A stretch of DNA of 64,000 bases from Chryseobacterium gleum. Lineage in GTDB: Bacteria > Bacteroidota > Bacteroidia > Flavobacteriales_D > Crocinitomicaceae. Where the stretch lies: assembly GCA_945862165.1 (NCBI GenBank), contig CAMAXI010000002.1:248001-312000 (forward strand), given 5' to 3'. The position numbers and the translations under genes were made by a program. Each line of letters opens with the position of its first letter. The first letter of the stretch is position 1. The notes beneath the pieces are model-generated. The model was not told the DNA's origin, ran no database searches, and worked only from the letters and a program-made list of their open reading frames with translations. This document shows positions 42,475 through 49,099 of the stretch, one piece after another.

Positions 42475-43578
42475 ATGAGAAAATTACAAATACTACTACC
42501 ATTCCTTATTATAACACAATGCTTGTTTAGTCAAGTAACTAATACCGGCTTAATGGATACTCTTGGCGGTGAAAAAATTAAAAATGTGACGATTGGTGGT
42601 TACCTAGACACCTATTATTCTTTTGGTTTTAACCAACCAAAAGATGGAACTATCCCATATTTAGTTTCAGCTGATAATCACAATGATTTTTCCATAAATC
42701 TCGCTTATTTAGACTTACGTTATACCGATTCACATGTTAGAGCGCGCTTTGTACCGGGCTTTGGCACTTATATGAATGCTAATTATTCCAACGAAAAAGG
42801 ATTATTTAAAAATTTAGTAGAAGCATCTGTTGGGATTTGTTTATCTAAAAAAAGAAATATTTGGCTGGAATCCGGAATCCTAGGTTCTCCATTTACCAAT
42901 GAAAGTGCTATCTCCAAAGATCACTTTATGTATACACGCAGTTTATCTGCAGAAAATGTACCCTATTACTTAACGGGGCTAAAAGTAAGTATTCCTTTAA
43001 CTTCAAAATGGAATCTATATACCTATATTTTAAATGGTTGGCAACAAATCACGGATCAAAATTCCGGAAAATCATTTGCTACACAACTAGAATTTCGACC
43101 AAATGAATCGCACTTAATTAATTGGAATACCTATGTTGGAGATGAACGTAGCGCAATAAATCCATCTTTTCGAATGCGCTATTTTTCGGATTTGTACTGG
43201 ATTTCCTCGCCAACTAAAAAATTAAATTTTATTACTTGTATGTATGCGGGGGTGCAAGAATTTTCAAACCGAAAACACGCATTTTGGTGGCAAGCGAATC
43301 TTTCAGCAAAATGGAAATTTTCAGAAAAACAAAACCTAGCAGGACGTATCGAATACTTTAACGATCCGCAAAATTGTATGATTATTAATCAACTAAAAAA
43401 TGAAAAAATAGGAATATTAAGTACAGGACTTTGTTATAATATTACTATTCAAGAGCATGCACTTTTTCGCATCGATGCACGACAATTTTATACTCAATAC
43501 CCAATGTTTACAAACCAACAATCCACCAATAAAAATAACGCATTTGTTTTAACTGGAAATATTACAGTTTGGTTTTAA
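42475..43578 (+). CDS. Outer-membrane beta-barrel protein (BBP2/OmpL-like)
   Basis: A 367-residue protein with a signal peptide ending at LFSQ. The mature part is built of alternating aromatic beta strands ending in WF, typical of outer-membrane barrels. The opening NVTIGGYLDTYYSFGFNQP and AYLDLRYTDSHVRARF match the putative beta-barrel porin-2 family. No solute specificity can be read. Its 3' end overlaps the convergent YgiQ-like gene by 4 bp. Confidence 0.82.
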   Translation: MRKLQILLPFLIITQCLFSQVTNTGLMDTLGGEKIKNVTIGGYLDTYYSFGFNQPKDGTIPYLVSADNHNDFSINLAYLDLRYTDSHVRARFVPGFGTYMNANYSNEKGLFKNLVEASVGICLSKKRNIWLESGILGSPFTNESAISKDHFMYTRSLSAENVPYYLTGLKVSIPLTSKWNLYTYILNGWQQITDQNSGKSFATQLEFRPNESHLINWNTYVGDERSAINPSFRMRYFSDLYWISSPTKKLNFITCMYAGVQEFSNRKHAFWWQANLSAKWKFSEKQNLAGRIEYFNDPQNCMIINQLKNEKIGILSTGLCYNITIQEHALFRIDARQFYTQYPMFTNQQSTNKNNAFVLTGNITVWF

Positions 43579-45473
43579 CGTTTCCTACGTTTCGCTAACC
43601 ATTCTGGAACCTCTTTCTTCGGTTGTTTGTGATTTTCGGATCCCAATAACTTTTCAGCTAAATCTGGACGGTTTGCTTTTTGTAAACAATTTTTGATCCA
43701 ATCCCTATTTTCACGTTTGTACCAAAAGAAGAAACGATTTTGATTCAATTTTTCCTCCTTGGTTTTAACGGTTTTAATCGGTTTTAAGGTATATGGATGT
43801 ACCCCTGAATAATAAATTACTTCAGCAACCGTCATTGGGGTTGGAGTAAAGTCTTGTACCTGCTCCAATTGAAAGCCCATATCTTTCGTTTCTGCTGCCA
43901 AATTCGCCATATCTTCTTCCTCACACCCTGGATGTGAAGATATGAAATACGGTATCAATGGTTGATTTAAATTGTGTTTCGCAGAAATCGCATCGTATTT
44001 TTCCTTGAATTTATGGAAATACGAAAACGAAGGTTTACGCATCACCCGCAAAGTAGCATCTGAAGTATGTTCTGGCGCAACTTTTAACCGTCCAGATATA
44101 TGGTGTTTTACAACTTGTTCGATGTATTCGTCGTGGTTTCCGTCTTCGTTATTTTTATTGAAATCATCCACCAATAAATCGTAACGTATCCCTGAACCAA
44201 TAAATGCTTTTTTCACTTTCGGATGTTGGTCTACTTTTTTGTAGAGTTCCGTCATCGGTTTGTGGGAAGTGTCCAAATTCGAGCAAATTACGGGATGTAT
44301 ACAACTAGGACTCGAACAACGATTACAAATCGCTTCATCTTTACCTTTCATTTTGTACATGTTCGCCGAAGGTCCACCTAAATCAGAGATGTATCCTCTA
44401 AATTCTGGGTGACTGGTAACTTGTTCTAATTCTTTTAAAATTGATTTCTCGCTACGCGACGCAATAAATTTCCCTTGGTGTGCAGAAATCGTACAGAAAC
44501 TACAGCCACCAAAGCATCCACGGTGCATGTTGATCGAAAACTTAATCATGTCATACGCAGGAATAGCGCCACGCTTTTTGTATTTTGGATGCGGCATACG
44601 CGTATACGGTAAGTCAAAGGATTTATCAATTTCCTTTTCTTCCATGGTTTTGTATGGAGGATTAATTACCAAGGTTTCATTTCCAACGTGTTGAATAATA
44701 CGGTTCGCTTCCCATTTATTAGACTCAACCTCTACTATTTTGAAGTTCGCCGCATACTTAATTTTATCCTCTAAACAAACTTCATGACTTGCCAATTCAA
44801 CCGTTTCCCATTGTTTATTTTTCGGTAATTCTTCTTCTTTCGGTTGTAAAAATGCAATTTGTTTTAATGTCTTCAAAGAAGAAAATGGAACGCCTTTTTT
44901 CAATAAACGCAACATTTCGCGCAAGGGTTGTTCGCCCATTCCATATACCAACATGTCGGCTTTGGAATCCACCAAAACAGAAGGCATCAATTGGTCTTTC
45001 CAATAATCGTAGTGAGTAACACGACGCAAAGAAGCTTCGATGCCACCAATTAAAATTGGAACATCTGGATATAATTCTTTTAATATATTTGAATAAACGA
45101 TTGTAGCATAATCTGGTCGATAGCCCGCTTCTCCTCCAGGTGAATAAGCATCCGTGGAACGTAAACGTTTATTCGCTGTGTAATGGTTCACCATCGAGTC
45201 CATACAACCAGCGGTAACCCCAAAGAAATACTTTGGTTTACCAAACTTTTTGAAGTCGCGCAAATCATCTTTCCAGTTCGGTTGCGCAACGATCGCAATA
45301 CGAAAACCTTCGTCTTCGATGATACGGCCAATAACAGCCGTTCCAAATGCAGGATGATCTACATAGGCATCACCGGAGATTAAAACGACATCTACATCGT
45401 CCCATCCACGTTTTTCAACTTCCTGTTTGGTGATCGGTAACCAGTCGGTAATTGGTCTTAATTGTTGTTCCAT
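43575..45473 (-). CDS. YgiQ-family radical SAM protein
   Basis: A 632-residue radical SAM protein. The N-terminal UPF0313 domain is followed by the 4Fe-4S cysteine motif HRGCFGGCSFCTISAHQGK (~315) with the C-x3-C-x2-C spacing. A second cysteine group (CNRCSSPSCIHPVIC) follows near 395. KVAPEHTSD and SSHPGCEEEDM are family-specific. YgiQ function is not established. The C-terminus is basic (KKEVPEWLAKRRKR). TACCTTTG lies 6 nt before the ATG. Confidence 0.92.
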   Translation of the reverse strand: MEQQLRPITDWLPITKQEVEKRGWDDVDVVLISGDAYVDHPAFGTAVIGRIIEDEGFRIAIVAQPNWKDDLRDFKKFGKPKYFFGVTAGCMDSMVNHYTANKRLRSTDAYSPGGEAGYRPDYATIVYSNILKELYPDVPILIGGIEASLRRVTHYDYWKDQLMPSVLVDSKADMLVYGMGEQPLREMLRLLKKGVPFSSLKTLKQIAFLQPKEEELPKNKQWETVELASHEVCLEDKIKYAANFKIVEVESNKWEANRIIQHVGNETLVINPPYKTMEEKEIDKSFDLPYTRMPHPKYKKRGAIPAYDMIKFSINMHRGCFGGCSFCTISAHQGKFIASRSEKSILKELEQVTSHPEFRGYISDLGGPSANMYKMKGKDEAICNRCSSPSCIHPVICSNLDTSHKPMTELYKKVDQHPKVKKAFIGSGIRYDLLVDDFNKNNEDGNHDEYIEQVVKHHISGRLKVAPEHTSDATLRVMRKPSFSYFHKFKEKYDAISAKHNLNQPLIPYFISSHPGCEEEDMANLAAETKDMGFQLEQVQDFTPTPMTVAEVIYYSGVHPYTLKPIKTVKTKEEKLNQNRFFFWYKRENRDWIKNCLQKANRPDLAEKLLGSENHKQPKKEVPEWLAKRRKR

Positions 45474-45535: not shown

Positions 45536-45820
45536 TTAGATTTTTGTCGAATGATAATAAGCAAATTCCGGGCTAATGTCGTAAGCACAAGCAATTATAG
45601 TCCCATCATAATCCTTCATTTCGCCTACGTTTTCCCAGTAAATTTCTCCAAAAGAACCAATTTTTGCAGCTTTGTAGGTGTTGTTATCCATTAATTTTTG
45701 GACAAACTTATTTTTTATATCTAACGATTTTGATACATCTAACAGTTTCGTTTCTCCAGTGTTAAAAGTACACTGAATTTGAAATGCGTCTAATATGAAT
45801 ATGTTGGTTACTTTATACAT
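45536..45820 (-). CDS. DUF2442 protein, partner of the DUF4160 gene
   Basis: A 94-residue protein with the DUF2442 pattern: VTNIFILDAFQIQCTFNTGE, KLLDVSKSL, then GSFGEIYWENVGEMKDYDG and an end CAYDISPEFAYYHS. It starts two bases after the DUF4160 stop, so the two are one transcript. These two domain types are commonly found side by side in bacteria and have been suspected of forming toxin-antitoxin-like modules; activity is not established, and which partner would be which is unknown. Confidence 0.82.
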   Translation of the reverse strand: MYKVTNIFILDAFQIQCTFNTGETKLLDVSKSLDIKNKFVQKLMDNNTYKAAKIGSFGEIYWENVGEMKDYDGTIIACAYDISPEFAYYHSTKI

Positions 45821-45822
45821 TT

Positions 45823-46071
45823 TTATCTTAATGGTTCGATTTTATGAAAATCTTTTGAATTCCACATTTCTAATAACTCTTCTTTGTGAATTTCAGCCCA
45901 AGCAGAAACAAGTTTAAGTTTACTAATAGGAAAATCTCCATTCAAAATGGAACCATTCTCAATTAAAATATTTGCTTCAAATTCTGAATATTTTACCTTA
46001 AAATGAGGAGGGTTATGATCATTGAAGAACATATAAATTATTATTCCGTAAAATCTACTTATTTCAGGCAT
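45823..46071 (-). CDS. DUF4160 protein
   Basis: An 82-residue protein nearly full-length DUF4160: MPEISRFYGIIIYMFFNDHN, PPHFKVKYSE, GDFPISKLKLVSAWAEIH, EELLEMWNSKDF. The His/Asn cluster NDHNPPHF is the family's most conserved motif; its role is unknown. A TACATTTG box ends 4 nt before the ATG. Three 16-bp operator-like sites lie 106-205 bp upstream, and an XRE-type regulator is the next gene on the same strand. First gene of the DUF4160-DUF2442 pair. Confidence 0.85.
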   Translation of the reverse strand: MPEISRFYGIIIYMFFNDHNPPHFKVKYSEFEANILIENGSILNGDFPISKLKLVSAWAEIHKEELLEMWNSKDFHKIEPLR

Positions 46072-46075
46072 TCAA

Positions 46076-46083
46076 CAAATGTA
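46076..46083 (-). promoter_or_regulatory. -7 box immediately before the DUF4160 gene
   Basis: TACATTTG, TTGA, ATG on the minus strand: a 4-nt gap. Confidence 0.6.
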
Positions 46084-46176
46084 TTAAAAATATATAAACT
46101 CTGCAATAATCTTGTTGCCAGACAACAAAAACGAGCAAATATTTGTATCAACTAGGAAATTAACGCCATTTATTTT

Positions 46177-46192
46177 TAGGGTTATAACCCTA
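46177..46192. promoter_or_regulatory. Operator-like palindrome, site 1
   Basis: TAGGGTTATAACCCTA is a perfect 16-bp palindrome. First of three related sites whose ATAAC cores lie at 46184, 46226 and 46268, exactly 42 bp apart, in the DUF4160-XRE gap. Confidence 0.65.
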
Positions 46193-46218
46193 TATTCTTA
46201 TCCATTTTTAAAGCTTTT

Positions 46219-46234
46219 TATGGGTATAACCCTA
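46219..46234. promoter_or_regulatory. Operator-like site 2
   Basis: TATGGGTATAACCCTA, sharing TATAACCCTA with site 1 and 42 bp from it. Confidence 0.6.
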
Positions 46235-46260
46235 AAAACTTTAAATTTATTTTAACTAAT

Positions 46261-46276
46261 TAGGGATATAACTTAT
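46261..46276. promoter_or_regulatory. Operator-like site 3 (degenerate)
   Basis: TAGGGATATAACTTAT keeps the TAGGG half and the ATAAC core of site 1 but has lost the CCCTA half; 42 bp from site 2. Confidence 0.5.
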
Positions 46277-46343
46277 TTATTACGATTAGATTTTATTTGA
46301 GTGGTTCTGTTCTCTTTTGTTTATCACCGCCCTCGGTCCCTCC

Positions 46344-46592
46344 TCACTTCGGAAAAGAAATTCCCTCAAAAAATTCTGCCAAGGTAATTTTAAATAATTC
46401 GCAAATTCGAATGAGTGTTTTTAATTCAAAGTTGGCACCAGACTCCAAACGCCAATAGGCAGAACGCGACATATTCAATTCAAAAGCAATGTGCTCGTAA
46501 TTTTTATATCCTTTTGCTTTACGTAACTCTTTCAAGCGCAAAGCAATTGCTTTATAGGATTCTGAATAATCAACTTTTTGGTCCATGCTCAA
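46344..46592 (-). CDS. XRE-family HTH regulator
   Basis: An 82-residue protein that is mostly a single Cro/CI helix-turn-helix: ALRLKELRKAKGYKNYEHIAFELNMSRSAYWRLESGANF (in parts) with turn and recognition helix at ~42-56, then LIRICELFKITLAEFF. No ligand or multimerisation domain follows. It is upstream of and co-directional with DUF4160-DUF2442, separated by the 272-bp gap carrying three operator-like sites, which it is a natural candidate to bind (inference). Confidence 0.9.
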   Translation of the reverse strand: MSMDQKVDYSESYKAIALRLKELRKAKGYKNYEHIAFELNMSRSAYWRLESGANFELKTLIRICELFKITLAEFFEGISFPK

Positions 46593-46825: not shown

Positions 46826-49099
46826 ATGAAAAAACAATTACTTTTTGTAACAGTACTTTTTTTAAGTATATCATCAATTTTCGCGCAAAATGTGCCGAAT
46901 TATGTACCTACAAATGGCTTAGTTGGTTGGTGGCCATTTAATGGGAATGCGAATGATGAGTCAGGGAATGGAAATCATGGCACTGTGAATGGTGCGGCTT
47001 TGACAGCTGATAGAATTGGAAAAGCCAATAATGCCTATAAATTTAATGGAGCTGAAAAAATTGTAATTCAAAACACCATTTTAACAAATGATTTTACAGA
47101 TCAAAGTACGTCTGTATGGATTAATACTAAAGTTGGAGCTACAACAATTATGTCTGATCGAGGAAAAAATGGAGGATATCCAGGTTATTTTTGGTACAAA
47201 AACAGTTTATTTGTTGATAGCATTGGAGATTGGAGGTCAGTTTCTCATAATAATAATTGTGTTAATGAATCATACAGCAAATCTAATTCGAGTGTAATAG
47301 ATGGAAACTGGCATCATTTGTTGATTGTATGGGATTCAAAAAACAATTTAATAAAACTTTATACTGACGGTGTTCTAACAAAAACCAATACAAGTATAAA
47401 TAAAAATTGTTATGGTAATGTTGGTCAACCTTTAACAATTGGTTGTTTTCCAGGCTATCCAGGTATTTCAGATTTAAGCTTCTATAATGGTTTAATAGAC
47501 GACATAGCCATCTATAACCGCGCACTAAGCGAACAAGAAATCACTAACTTATACAACGGTGGTTCGCAATCTACAATAGCATCCACCAAAGTCTTCGTAG
47601 ATGCTCCAGCAAGCGTAAAACAAAATGACACCTTACAATTATCCATCAGCACTGAAACGTTGAATACGAGTGATAATGTAATTGCTTATCAAACAGATTT
47701 TTCCTACGACACAACACGTTATACCTATTTGAGTAATAATTTGGTTGGAACATTAAACACCAATGGAAGTGTGGTAGTAAATAGTACTAAAAACGGAAAA
47801 CTATCTATTAGCTACATGTCTCAAACAGCATTAAATGGTGCAGGAAGTTTGATGAAATTGAAATTTAAATCCAACAATACATTAGGACAAGGAATTTTTG
47901 GTTTGTCTAATTTCTTGTATAACACCACAACCATTACAAGTTTAAAAAGTGACACGGTAGTTACGATTGATGGTATCCCTCCAACGGCAAAAATCACATA
48001 TTCCGTGAATCCAGCGCGTAAAGGAGATTCCCTTTTAATTACGGTAAAATTCAATGAAAAAATGGCGGTTTCACCAGTTCCTCAATTGAATTTAACAGGT
48101 CAAAATACCTTAGCTAATTCTAATTTAACCAAAGTGAATGATACAACTTATACCTACTGGTGGGTAGTTGAGAAAGGAAACGGAGCAGTAAATGTAAATT
48201 TAGCTACAGGTAAAGATTTAGGTGGAAATGGTATTGTTGCAACACCTACACAAAATCCAAGTTTTACAGTATTACCAACGTTATTTGGAGATATTGATAC
48301 AAACAAATCAGTACAAGCGTATGATGCAGCTTTGGCATTGCAATACTCTGTAGGTTTAAACCCATTACCAACAATGGATCCTTTACCTTGGTCCAATTGG
48401 AGATTAGCAGTAGCAAACGTAGATACGGTTGGAAATGTGACTGCAAATGATGCTTCTTTGATTTTACAATATTCAGCAAAATTGATTTCTACTTTCCCAG
48501 CAGATGCGAAGAAACGTGGTGGTGATGCACCAACAGCAGATGTGACAGTTAGCAAAGAAGGAAACCAATTAGTATTTAGAACAACTGGTACATTGTATGG
48601 TTTTAATGTCTATTTCAAGGAAAATTTCAATGCTTTTGGTCAACCAGAAGTTAGCGATAAAAATGTAATTTTGGCGACGAATATAAATGCAACAACTTAC
48701 AACCTTGGTTTAGCATCTACTAAACCAATTACCGTAAATGAACCATTTTTAATTATTCCAATCCTAACAAACACAGACGTTAAAGGAACAATGGATATCG
48801 TAGCAAATACGCAAGAAAAATCCTTAGCATATGGTGCAGCTTTAAGTATTTTAGAAATTAATAAAGAAATGCTAATTGTATATCCTAACCCAACGAAAGA
48901 TATAGTGACGATTAAAAATGCACAAGGAAACACACTTCGTATCCTAAATGTAGAAGGAAAAGAAGTGTATAATCAAAAGATGACTGGAAACACAATGGAT
49001 GTCTCTTTAAAAACAGTAGGTGCTAAAGGAATGTATATACTACATATCCAAGATGCAAATAATGAAAGCATTCAAAGTAAACAAATTATTTTAGAATAA
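46826..49099 (+). CDS. T9SS cargo with LamG, cohesin-like, Ig-like and dockerin-like modules
   Basis: A 757-residue secreted protein with a signal peptide ending at IFAQ. Residues ~25-245: LamG/concanavalin-like domain (GLVGWWPFNGNANDESGNG, DGNWHHLLIVWD, GLIDDIAIYNRALSEQEI). ~250-385: cohesin-like domain (TKVFVDAPASVKQNDTLQLS ... DFSYDTTRY). ~385-490: bacterial Ig-like domain (PPTAKITYSVNPARKGDSL). ~490-570: dockerin-like pair of calcium loops (GDIDTNKSVQAYDAALALQY, ANVDTVGNVTANDASLILQY). The end (VYPNPTKDIVTI ... KGMYILHI) is a type A sorting domain. Probably a surface carbohydrate- or protein-binding scaffold. Confidence 0.8.
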   Translation: MKKQLLFVTVLFLSISSIFAQNVPNYVPTNGLVGWWPFNGNANDESGNGNHGTVNGAALTADRIGKANNAYKFNGAEKIVIQNTILTNDFTDQSTSVWINTKVGATTIMSDRGKNGGYPGYFWYKNSLFVDSIGDWRSVSHNNNCVNESYSKSNSSVIDGNWHHLLIVWDSKNNLIKLYTDGVLTKTNTSINKNCYGNVGQPLTIGCFPGYPGISDLSFYNGLIDDIAIYNRALSEQEITNLYNGGSQSTIASTKVFVDAPASVKQNDTLQLSISTETLNTSDNVIAYQTDFSYDTTRYTYLSNNLVGTLNTNGSVVVNSTKNGKLSISYMSQTALNGAGSLMKLKFKSNNTLGQGIFGLSNFLYNTTTITSLKSDTVVTIDGIPPTAKITYSVNPARKGDSLLITVKFNEKMAVSPVPQLNLTGQNTLANSNLTKVNDTTYTYWWVVEKGNGAVNVNLATGKDLGGNGIVATPTQNPSFTVLPTLFGDIDTNKSVQAYDAALALQYSVGLNPLPTMDPLPWSNWRLAVANVDTVGNVTANDASLILQYSAKLISTFPADAKKRGGDAPTADVTVSKEGNQLVFRTTGTLYGFNVYFKENFNAFGQPEVSDKNVILATNINATTYNLGLASTKPITVNEPFLIIPILTNTDVKGTMDIVANTQEKSLAYGAALSILEINKEMLIVYPNPTKDIVTIKNAQGNTLRILNVEGKEVYNQKMTGNTMDVSLKTVGAKGMYILHIQDANNESIQSKQIILE

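Follow-up and report, generated by a model that had tools for sequence, protein, structure and literature searches.

The window, as we call the whole stretch of 64,000 nucleotides analysed here, contains an array of three sites spaced at 42/42 bp (46177-46278, minus strand) that is very probably the upstream region, now orphaned, of an AAA_14-DUF4143 (PDC-S01) ATPase of the L033/L207 clade, the gene itself having been lost at this locus. ATPases of this kind are very common and poorly understood, and they are thought to defend bacteria against phages. The same sites precede most members of this one ATPase clade in several phyla, where they occupy fixed positions relative to each other and to a promoter element.

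Site architecture and gene context

In agreement with the initial annotation, the three sites have ATAAC cores at 46184, 46226 and 46268, each 42 bp from the next. The inner site 1 (46177-46192, minus strand) is the perfect palindrome TAGGGTTATAACCCTA and shows three mismatches to TTTATGGTTATAACCATAAA, the 20-mer consensus of the homologues. Site 2, with the core TATGGGTATAACCCTA (46219-46234, minus strand), is the best conserved of the three with two mismatches to the consensus, and it is extended into a longer inverted repeat, TTTAAAGcTTTTTAtGGGT/ATAACCCTAAAAACTTTAAA (46207-46246, minus strand). The earlier description of the sites stands for their positions and for the palindrome at site 1 but not for the outer site 3 (TAGGGATATAACTTAT; 46261-46276, minus strand), which is only a half site and differs from the consensus at 9 of 20 positions. 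An outer site corresponding to site 3 is also present at loci L033 and L034.

When both strands of the window were scanned for three successive GGTTATAACC-like cores at 41-42/41-42 bp, this array was the one occurrence, and the 16-mer with up to three mismatches was found twice in 64 kb against 0.31 occurrences expected. The array has one copy in the whole genome; the other 16-mer match, which has one mismatch (scan at 1-2 mismatches), sits inside a coding region, and on these two grounds a genome-wide regulon was rejected. An intrinsic terminator was likewise discarded, because neither strand has a T-run after the hairpins. Two further interpretations offered earlier, iterons and a 42-bp tandem duplication, found no support. 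The spacers between the sites are identical at 12 of 26 positions compared with 10.0 by chance, and being this unlike they speak against a recent duplication as the origin of the 42-bp regularity.

The genes around the array are all encoded on the minus strand, in the order XRE gene, array, DUF4160, DUF2442 and ygiQ. The small XRE/HTH_3 protein (46344-46592) is separated from the array by a GC-rich repeat (GAGGAGGGACCGAGGGCGGTGATAAACAAAA on the minus strand; 46314-46343). This repeat, of the form CCCTCC..GGAGGGACCGAGGGAGGTG, is dispersed in the genus and often adjoins these arrays. On the other side, the 5' part of a VapC (PIN) toxin gene survives as a remnant (GVNFLVDTNICSFLLSGNKIIAEF; 46074-46168, minus strand) between the array and DUF4160; vapBC is complete in G007 (L107:665-1187), and G002 carries an intact vapB together with the same VapC remnant. 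The DUF4160 protein (45823-46071, minus strand; Pfam PF13711) is a DhiT-like toxin that scores 85.5 bits with the NCBIfam DhiT model, under its cut-off of 100, and its gene has its own TAnnTTTG box at about 46076-46083. It is followed by the DUF2442 protein (45536-45820, minus strand), a DhiA-like antitoxin, the two making up a pair of the same kind as the type II toxin-antitoxin DhiT-DhiA of Dickeya dadantii. The YgiQ-type radical SAM gene ygiQ (43575-45473, minus strand) serves in the genus as the fixed landmark of an otherwise variable locus. Paralogues with Laminin_G_3 and Por-secretion-tail domains (46826-49099 in the window; L030, L031, L032, L035, L036 and L037) adjoin many toxin-antitoxin and array loci in the genus.

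ATPase loss at the ygiQ locus

With ygiQ as the fixed anchor, we compared the congeneric genomes that hold the locus. In G009 and G010 the array, with three sites at 42 bp, directly precedes the start of a gene for an AAA_14-DUF4143 ATPase of 405 aa, which is followed by ygiQ, and the counterpart of site 1 abuts the ATPase ATG. In G003, G005 and G006 the array is fused to the last ~28 codons of the ATPase (75-86% identical over 28-29 residues), again followed by ygiQ; the array running into the 3' end of the gene shows that the ATPase has been deleted from this place in the three genomes. In the window, in G001 and in G008 (to its contig end), the array is followed by the VapC 5' remnant and then by DUF4160-DUF2442. 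Judged from this alignment of loci, the place of the lost ATPase in the window is now taken by the VapC remnant and the DhiTA toxin-antitoxin pair. No ATPase of the array-linked clade was found in the own genome, which is 99.97% complete (best match 37%).

The sites are still recognisable in seven genomes whose assemblies lack the cognate ATPase, most of them incomplete MAGs from close lineages. Such persistence could mean that the sites have another user, and close kinship explains it only partly. Further copies of the array without an ATPase were observed elsewhere in the genus. G001 holds a second, two-site copy (L030:6593-7416) that lacks one 42-bp unit and has a DUF2683-YoeB toxin-antitoxin pair and a fragment of DUF4160/DUF2442 behind it; another copy precedes HipBA in G003 (L036:5585-5660), and two at the queA-side locus of G005 and G004 (L037:6259-6316 and L038:3854-3911, respectively) carry the motif in a drifted form (CTTACACCC). 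No ATPase remnant was detected beside any of these four arrays.

The initial annotation had taken the sites as part of a self-regulating module made up of the XRE regulator and DUF4160-DUF2442, and it had proposed their conservation at orthologous loci and their lack of scatter as a check. The orthologous locus does retain the sites, and they show no scatter, but their occurrence follows neither the DUF4160 gene nor the XRE gene. We therefore consider it quite unlikely that the array represents operators through which the adjacent XRE protein controls its own gene and DUF4160-DUF2442, even though palindrome binding is common among small XRE proteins and an XRE gene adjoins the array in G000, G003, G005 and G006, with an XRE fragment in G001 and G010. 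The array is intact without any XRE gene at the atpD-side locus of G007 and G011 and at the ATPase locus of G009, and it is equally intact beside the fragment in G010. The XRE frame is intact in G000 and G006, whereas in G001, G003 and G005 it is eroded and yet the sites are kept. Moreover, the array lies past the stop codon of the XRE gene and not at its promoter. The toxin-antitoxin pair fares no better as a partner, since it occurs without the array in G002, G003, G009 and G010 (L044-L047) and the array occurs without DUF4160 at L031-L036; the constant partner is the AAA_14-DUF4143 ATPase. Autorepression by DhiTA acts on its promoter within 100 bp (PMC8198452), whereas the array is located 106-205 bp upstream of the DUF4160 ATG with the VapC remnant in between, farther upstream than the DhiTA operator region, and it is not common to the DhiTA loci of relatives.

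Sites before one ATPase clade across phyla

A sequence model consisting of two sites and their spacer was run over 13 genomes of the genus and gave matches in 11, with one to three per genome. At a different, atpD-side locus of G007 and G011, the match immediately precedes a second AAA_14-DUF4143 ATPase, which shares 68% identity with the first. The ATPase was thereby suspected as the owner of the array, and 80 loci of ATPase relatives with their flanks were collected from public genomes (79 usable), mainly from Bacteroidota and Bacillota but also from Fusobacteriaceae and Spirochaetes. The relatives were fetched by a contig scan with a five-sequence alignment, which favours conserved members, and many of them come from MAGs. 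After removal of redundancy, we counted GGTTATAACC with at most one mismatch within 150 bp before the start codon, using 361 other genes of the fetched loci as controls. Such sites precede 29 of 34 ATPases at 57% identity or above, compared with 7 of the 361 control genes (Fisher p=3e-32). Their frequency falls to 10/21 among ATPases at 45-57% identity and to none among 61 DUF4143 proteins below 45%. Across the 79 loci, there were 80 sites with up to four mismatches to the 20-mer consensus in the region from -160 to +60 around the ATPase start, whereas the rest of the loci (488 kb) contained 4.

No gene family besides the ATPase recurs in more than 6 of the 79 loci. Array carriers include Bacteroidota, Caloramator and Desulfosporosinus of the Bacillota, and one Fusobacteriaceae MAG. 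The consensus 20-mer had no match in 395 Bacteroidota genomes (up to one mismatch) or in viral contigs (exact), a result that shows the rarity of the motif and says nothing on its linkage. ATPases of this family were also found on plasmids and in viral or phage records, and several of the 28 upstream regions from these sources contain paired sites 40-41 bp apart in drifted sequence.

The arrangement of the sites is conserved as well. Before the homologous ATPases, 29 of 36 spacings between neighbouring sites equal 41 bp (15 cases) or 42 bp (14 cases), while shuffled upstream regions are expected to yield 0.22 site pairs in all. A cooperative operator array in helical phase, as suggested in the earlier reading of the three sites, is strongly supported by these spacings. 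The consensus of the Bacteroidota -7 element is TAnnTTTG. In 12 of 25 arrays selected by having the 41-42 bp spacing, this box, searched as TAnnTT[T/A]G with one base left free, begins exactly 9 bp ahead of the inner site, against a background of 0.0025 per position. At this distance the transcription start falls within the inner site, with the next site just upstream of the -33 region, so that the homologous arrays appear to place two in-phase operators around one promoter.

The window conforms to this pattern in part. It contains at least two GGTTATAACC-type palindromes at the 41-42 bp spacing, and its site 1 would overlap the transcription start of the lost gene. In contrast, there is no ATPase gene directly downstream, and the place of the promoter box present in 12 of 25 homologues (46193-46208, minus strand) is degenerated (TAAGAATATA); 9 bp before the inner site the window reads TAAGAATATAG and shows no TAnnTTTG, which we read as decay. 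With both the box and the cognate ATPase gone and site 3 reduced to a half site, the array of the window is probably a relic and not a working member of its kind.

Two other explanations for the sites were weighed against the promoter geometry. The sites are inverted repeats, perfect or nearly so, and the inner one would fall in the 5' leader of the ATPase mRNA, as befits an RNA hairpin or attenuator acting in the leader instead of a DNA operator. However, the outer sites precede the promoter box and are hence absent from the transcript, and it is the centre-to-centre spacing that is tied to the helical repeat while the spacers vary, which makes a leader RNA very improbable. Least probable of all is a site-specific recombination site of the integron attC type, or a mobile repeat, at the boundary of changing cargo: the region of site 2 does fold as a long hairpin with extrahelical bases and the cargo by the array (ATPase, VapBC, DhiTA, YoeB) varies between relatives, but arrays number one to three per genome with a single one in the own genome, no integron integrase scores above the TIGR02249 cut-off, no matching site was found at the other end of the cargo, and the array keeps, as a regulator site would, a fixed distance from the ATG and promoter box of one gene across phyla. 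The copy number, the lack of an IntI and the constant association with a single promoter led us to reject an integron attC. A 390-aa tyrosine recombinase like integron integrases (G000:C17:12195-13013, L069) lacks profile positions 179-237, the same positions that are missing from the best own-genome match to TIGR02249.

The ATPase as candidate binder and other DUF4143 clades

The array-linked ATPases match the PADLOC candidate PDC-S01 with E-values down to 6.5e-154. PDC-S01 was described as the fourth most common defence system of prokaryotes, with an ATPase fused to a PD-(D/E)XK domain, and experimental validation is pending for most such defence candidates (PMC12988326). The same kind of gene stands behind the arrays of relatives, whereas in the window the gene itself is absent. 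The palindromes are not mentioned in PMC12988326, and no cis element for DUF4143 or PDC-S01 was found in the literature searched.

The predicted structure of the ATPase (44 homologues; mean pLDDT 90, pTM 0.90) comprises an AAA/STAND domain, a winged helix at residues ~212-290 and a nuclease-like C-terminal domain. The latter contains E310...EIDF...IQV, as in PD-(D/E)XK nucleases, and its reading as a nuclease fits the published description (PMC12988326). A PDB sequence search with the ATPase returned no relative. The nearest solved folds are the archaeal STAND-type ATPases 2qen and 2fna (Z 17.8 and 17.7), followed by NLR proteins and Orc1/Cdc6 (Z about 14); these matches span residues 1-306 and barely cover the C-terminal domain. 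Archaeal STAND/MNS-type ATPases and Cdc6/Orc1 initiators share the AAA and winged helix fold with the bacterial ATPase, but at an identity of 10-18% and without the additional nuclease-like domain, and Cdc6/Orc1 initiators bind origins and not a promoter array as considered here. The winged helix usually makes no DNA contact in NLR-type STAND proteins, whereas it is DNA-binding in Orc1/Cdc6, so the fold alone is not decisive.

In its working form the array would consist of two or three palindromes 41-42 bp apart, corresponding to four helical turns, which would bring the bound proteins onto the same side of the DNA. Proteins on the inner site, at the transcription start, and on its neighbour, immediately upstream of the -33 region, would together clamp the promoter. 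The proposed binder is the ATPase itself, acting via its winged helix as an autorepressor, and repression would be relieved when the ATPase is engaged or depleted. Such self-repression is the best reading, given that no neighbouring gene recurs and that the protein has a predicted winged helix and nuclease-like domain. The private pairing of the motif with one protein clade, together with the lack of any other constant gene, speaks for direct binding of the ATPase to its own array, and on balance we favour it. In-phase palindromes on either side of a promoter are also found in the lambda OR, LacI and toxin-antitoxin autorepressor systems; in contrast to these, the array is linked here to the gene of the presumed effector, the ATPase itself, and the palindromes differ from one DUF4143 clade to the next.

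Outside the clade, DUF4143 genes are preceded by inverted repeats of other sequence, with z > 2 in 36 of 61 cases compared with 64 of 361 controls (p = 1e-10). The sharing of upstream 16-mers (at least 14 matches) declines with protein identity, from 75% of pairs at 60% identity or above to 28% at 45-60%, 8% at 35-45%, 10% at 25-35% and 3% for pairs without a long alignment. The own 2.9 Mb genome contains 19 DUF4143 matches; 10 of the 15 upstream regions that could be scored have z > 2, with differing palindromes. Most of the own-genome DUF4143 loci that were read (e.g. L189-L206) have a palindrome of their own, or direct repeats, immediately ahead of the start codon, L198 and L200 being exceptions among DUF4143 genes. 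There is about an even chance that PDC-S01 ATPases in general possess private promoter palindromes that co-diversify with the protein, with many orthogonal copies per genome, the ATPase being its own repressor and perhaps a sensor. Titration or activation of the ATPase in a phage event would then free the promoter.

These results correct the reading of the locus: the sites are best regarded as the scar of a lost defence-candidate gene and not as the switch of the adjoining toxin-antitoxin pair. Following them revealed that many ATPase genes of this kind have their own palindromes just upstream. A conserved cis element with fixed geometry would provide a handle on PDC-S01, as a likely DNA target of the winged helix, as a reporter of phage induction and as a means to distinguish orthogonal paralogues.
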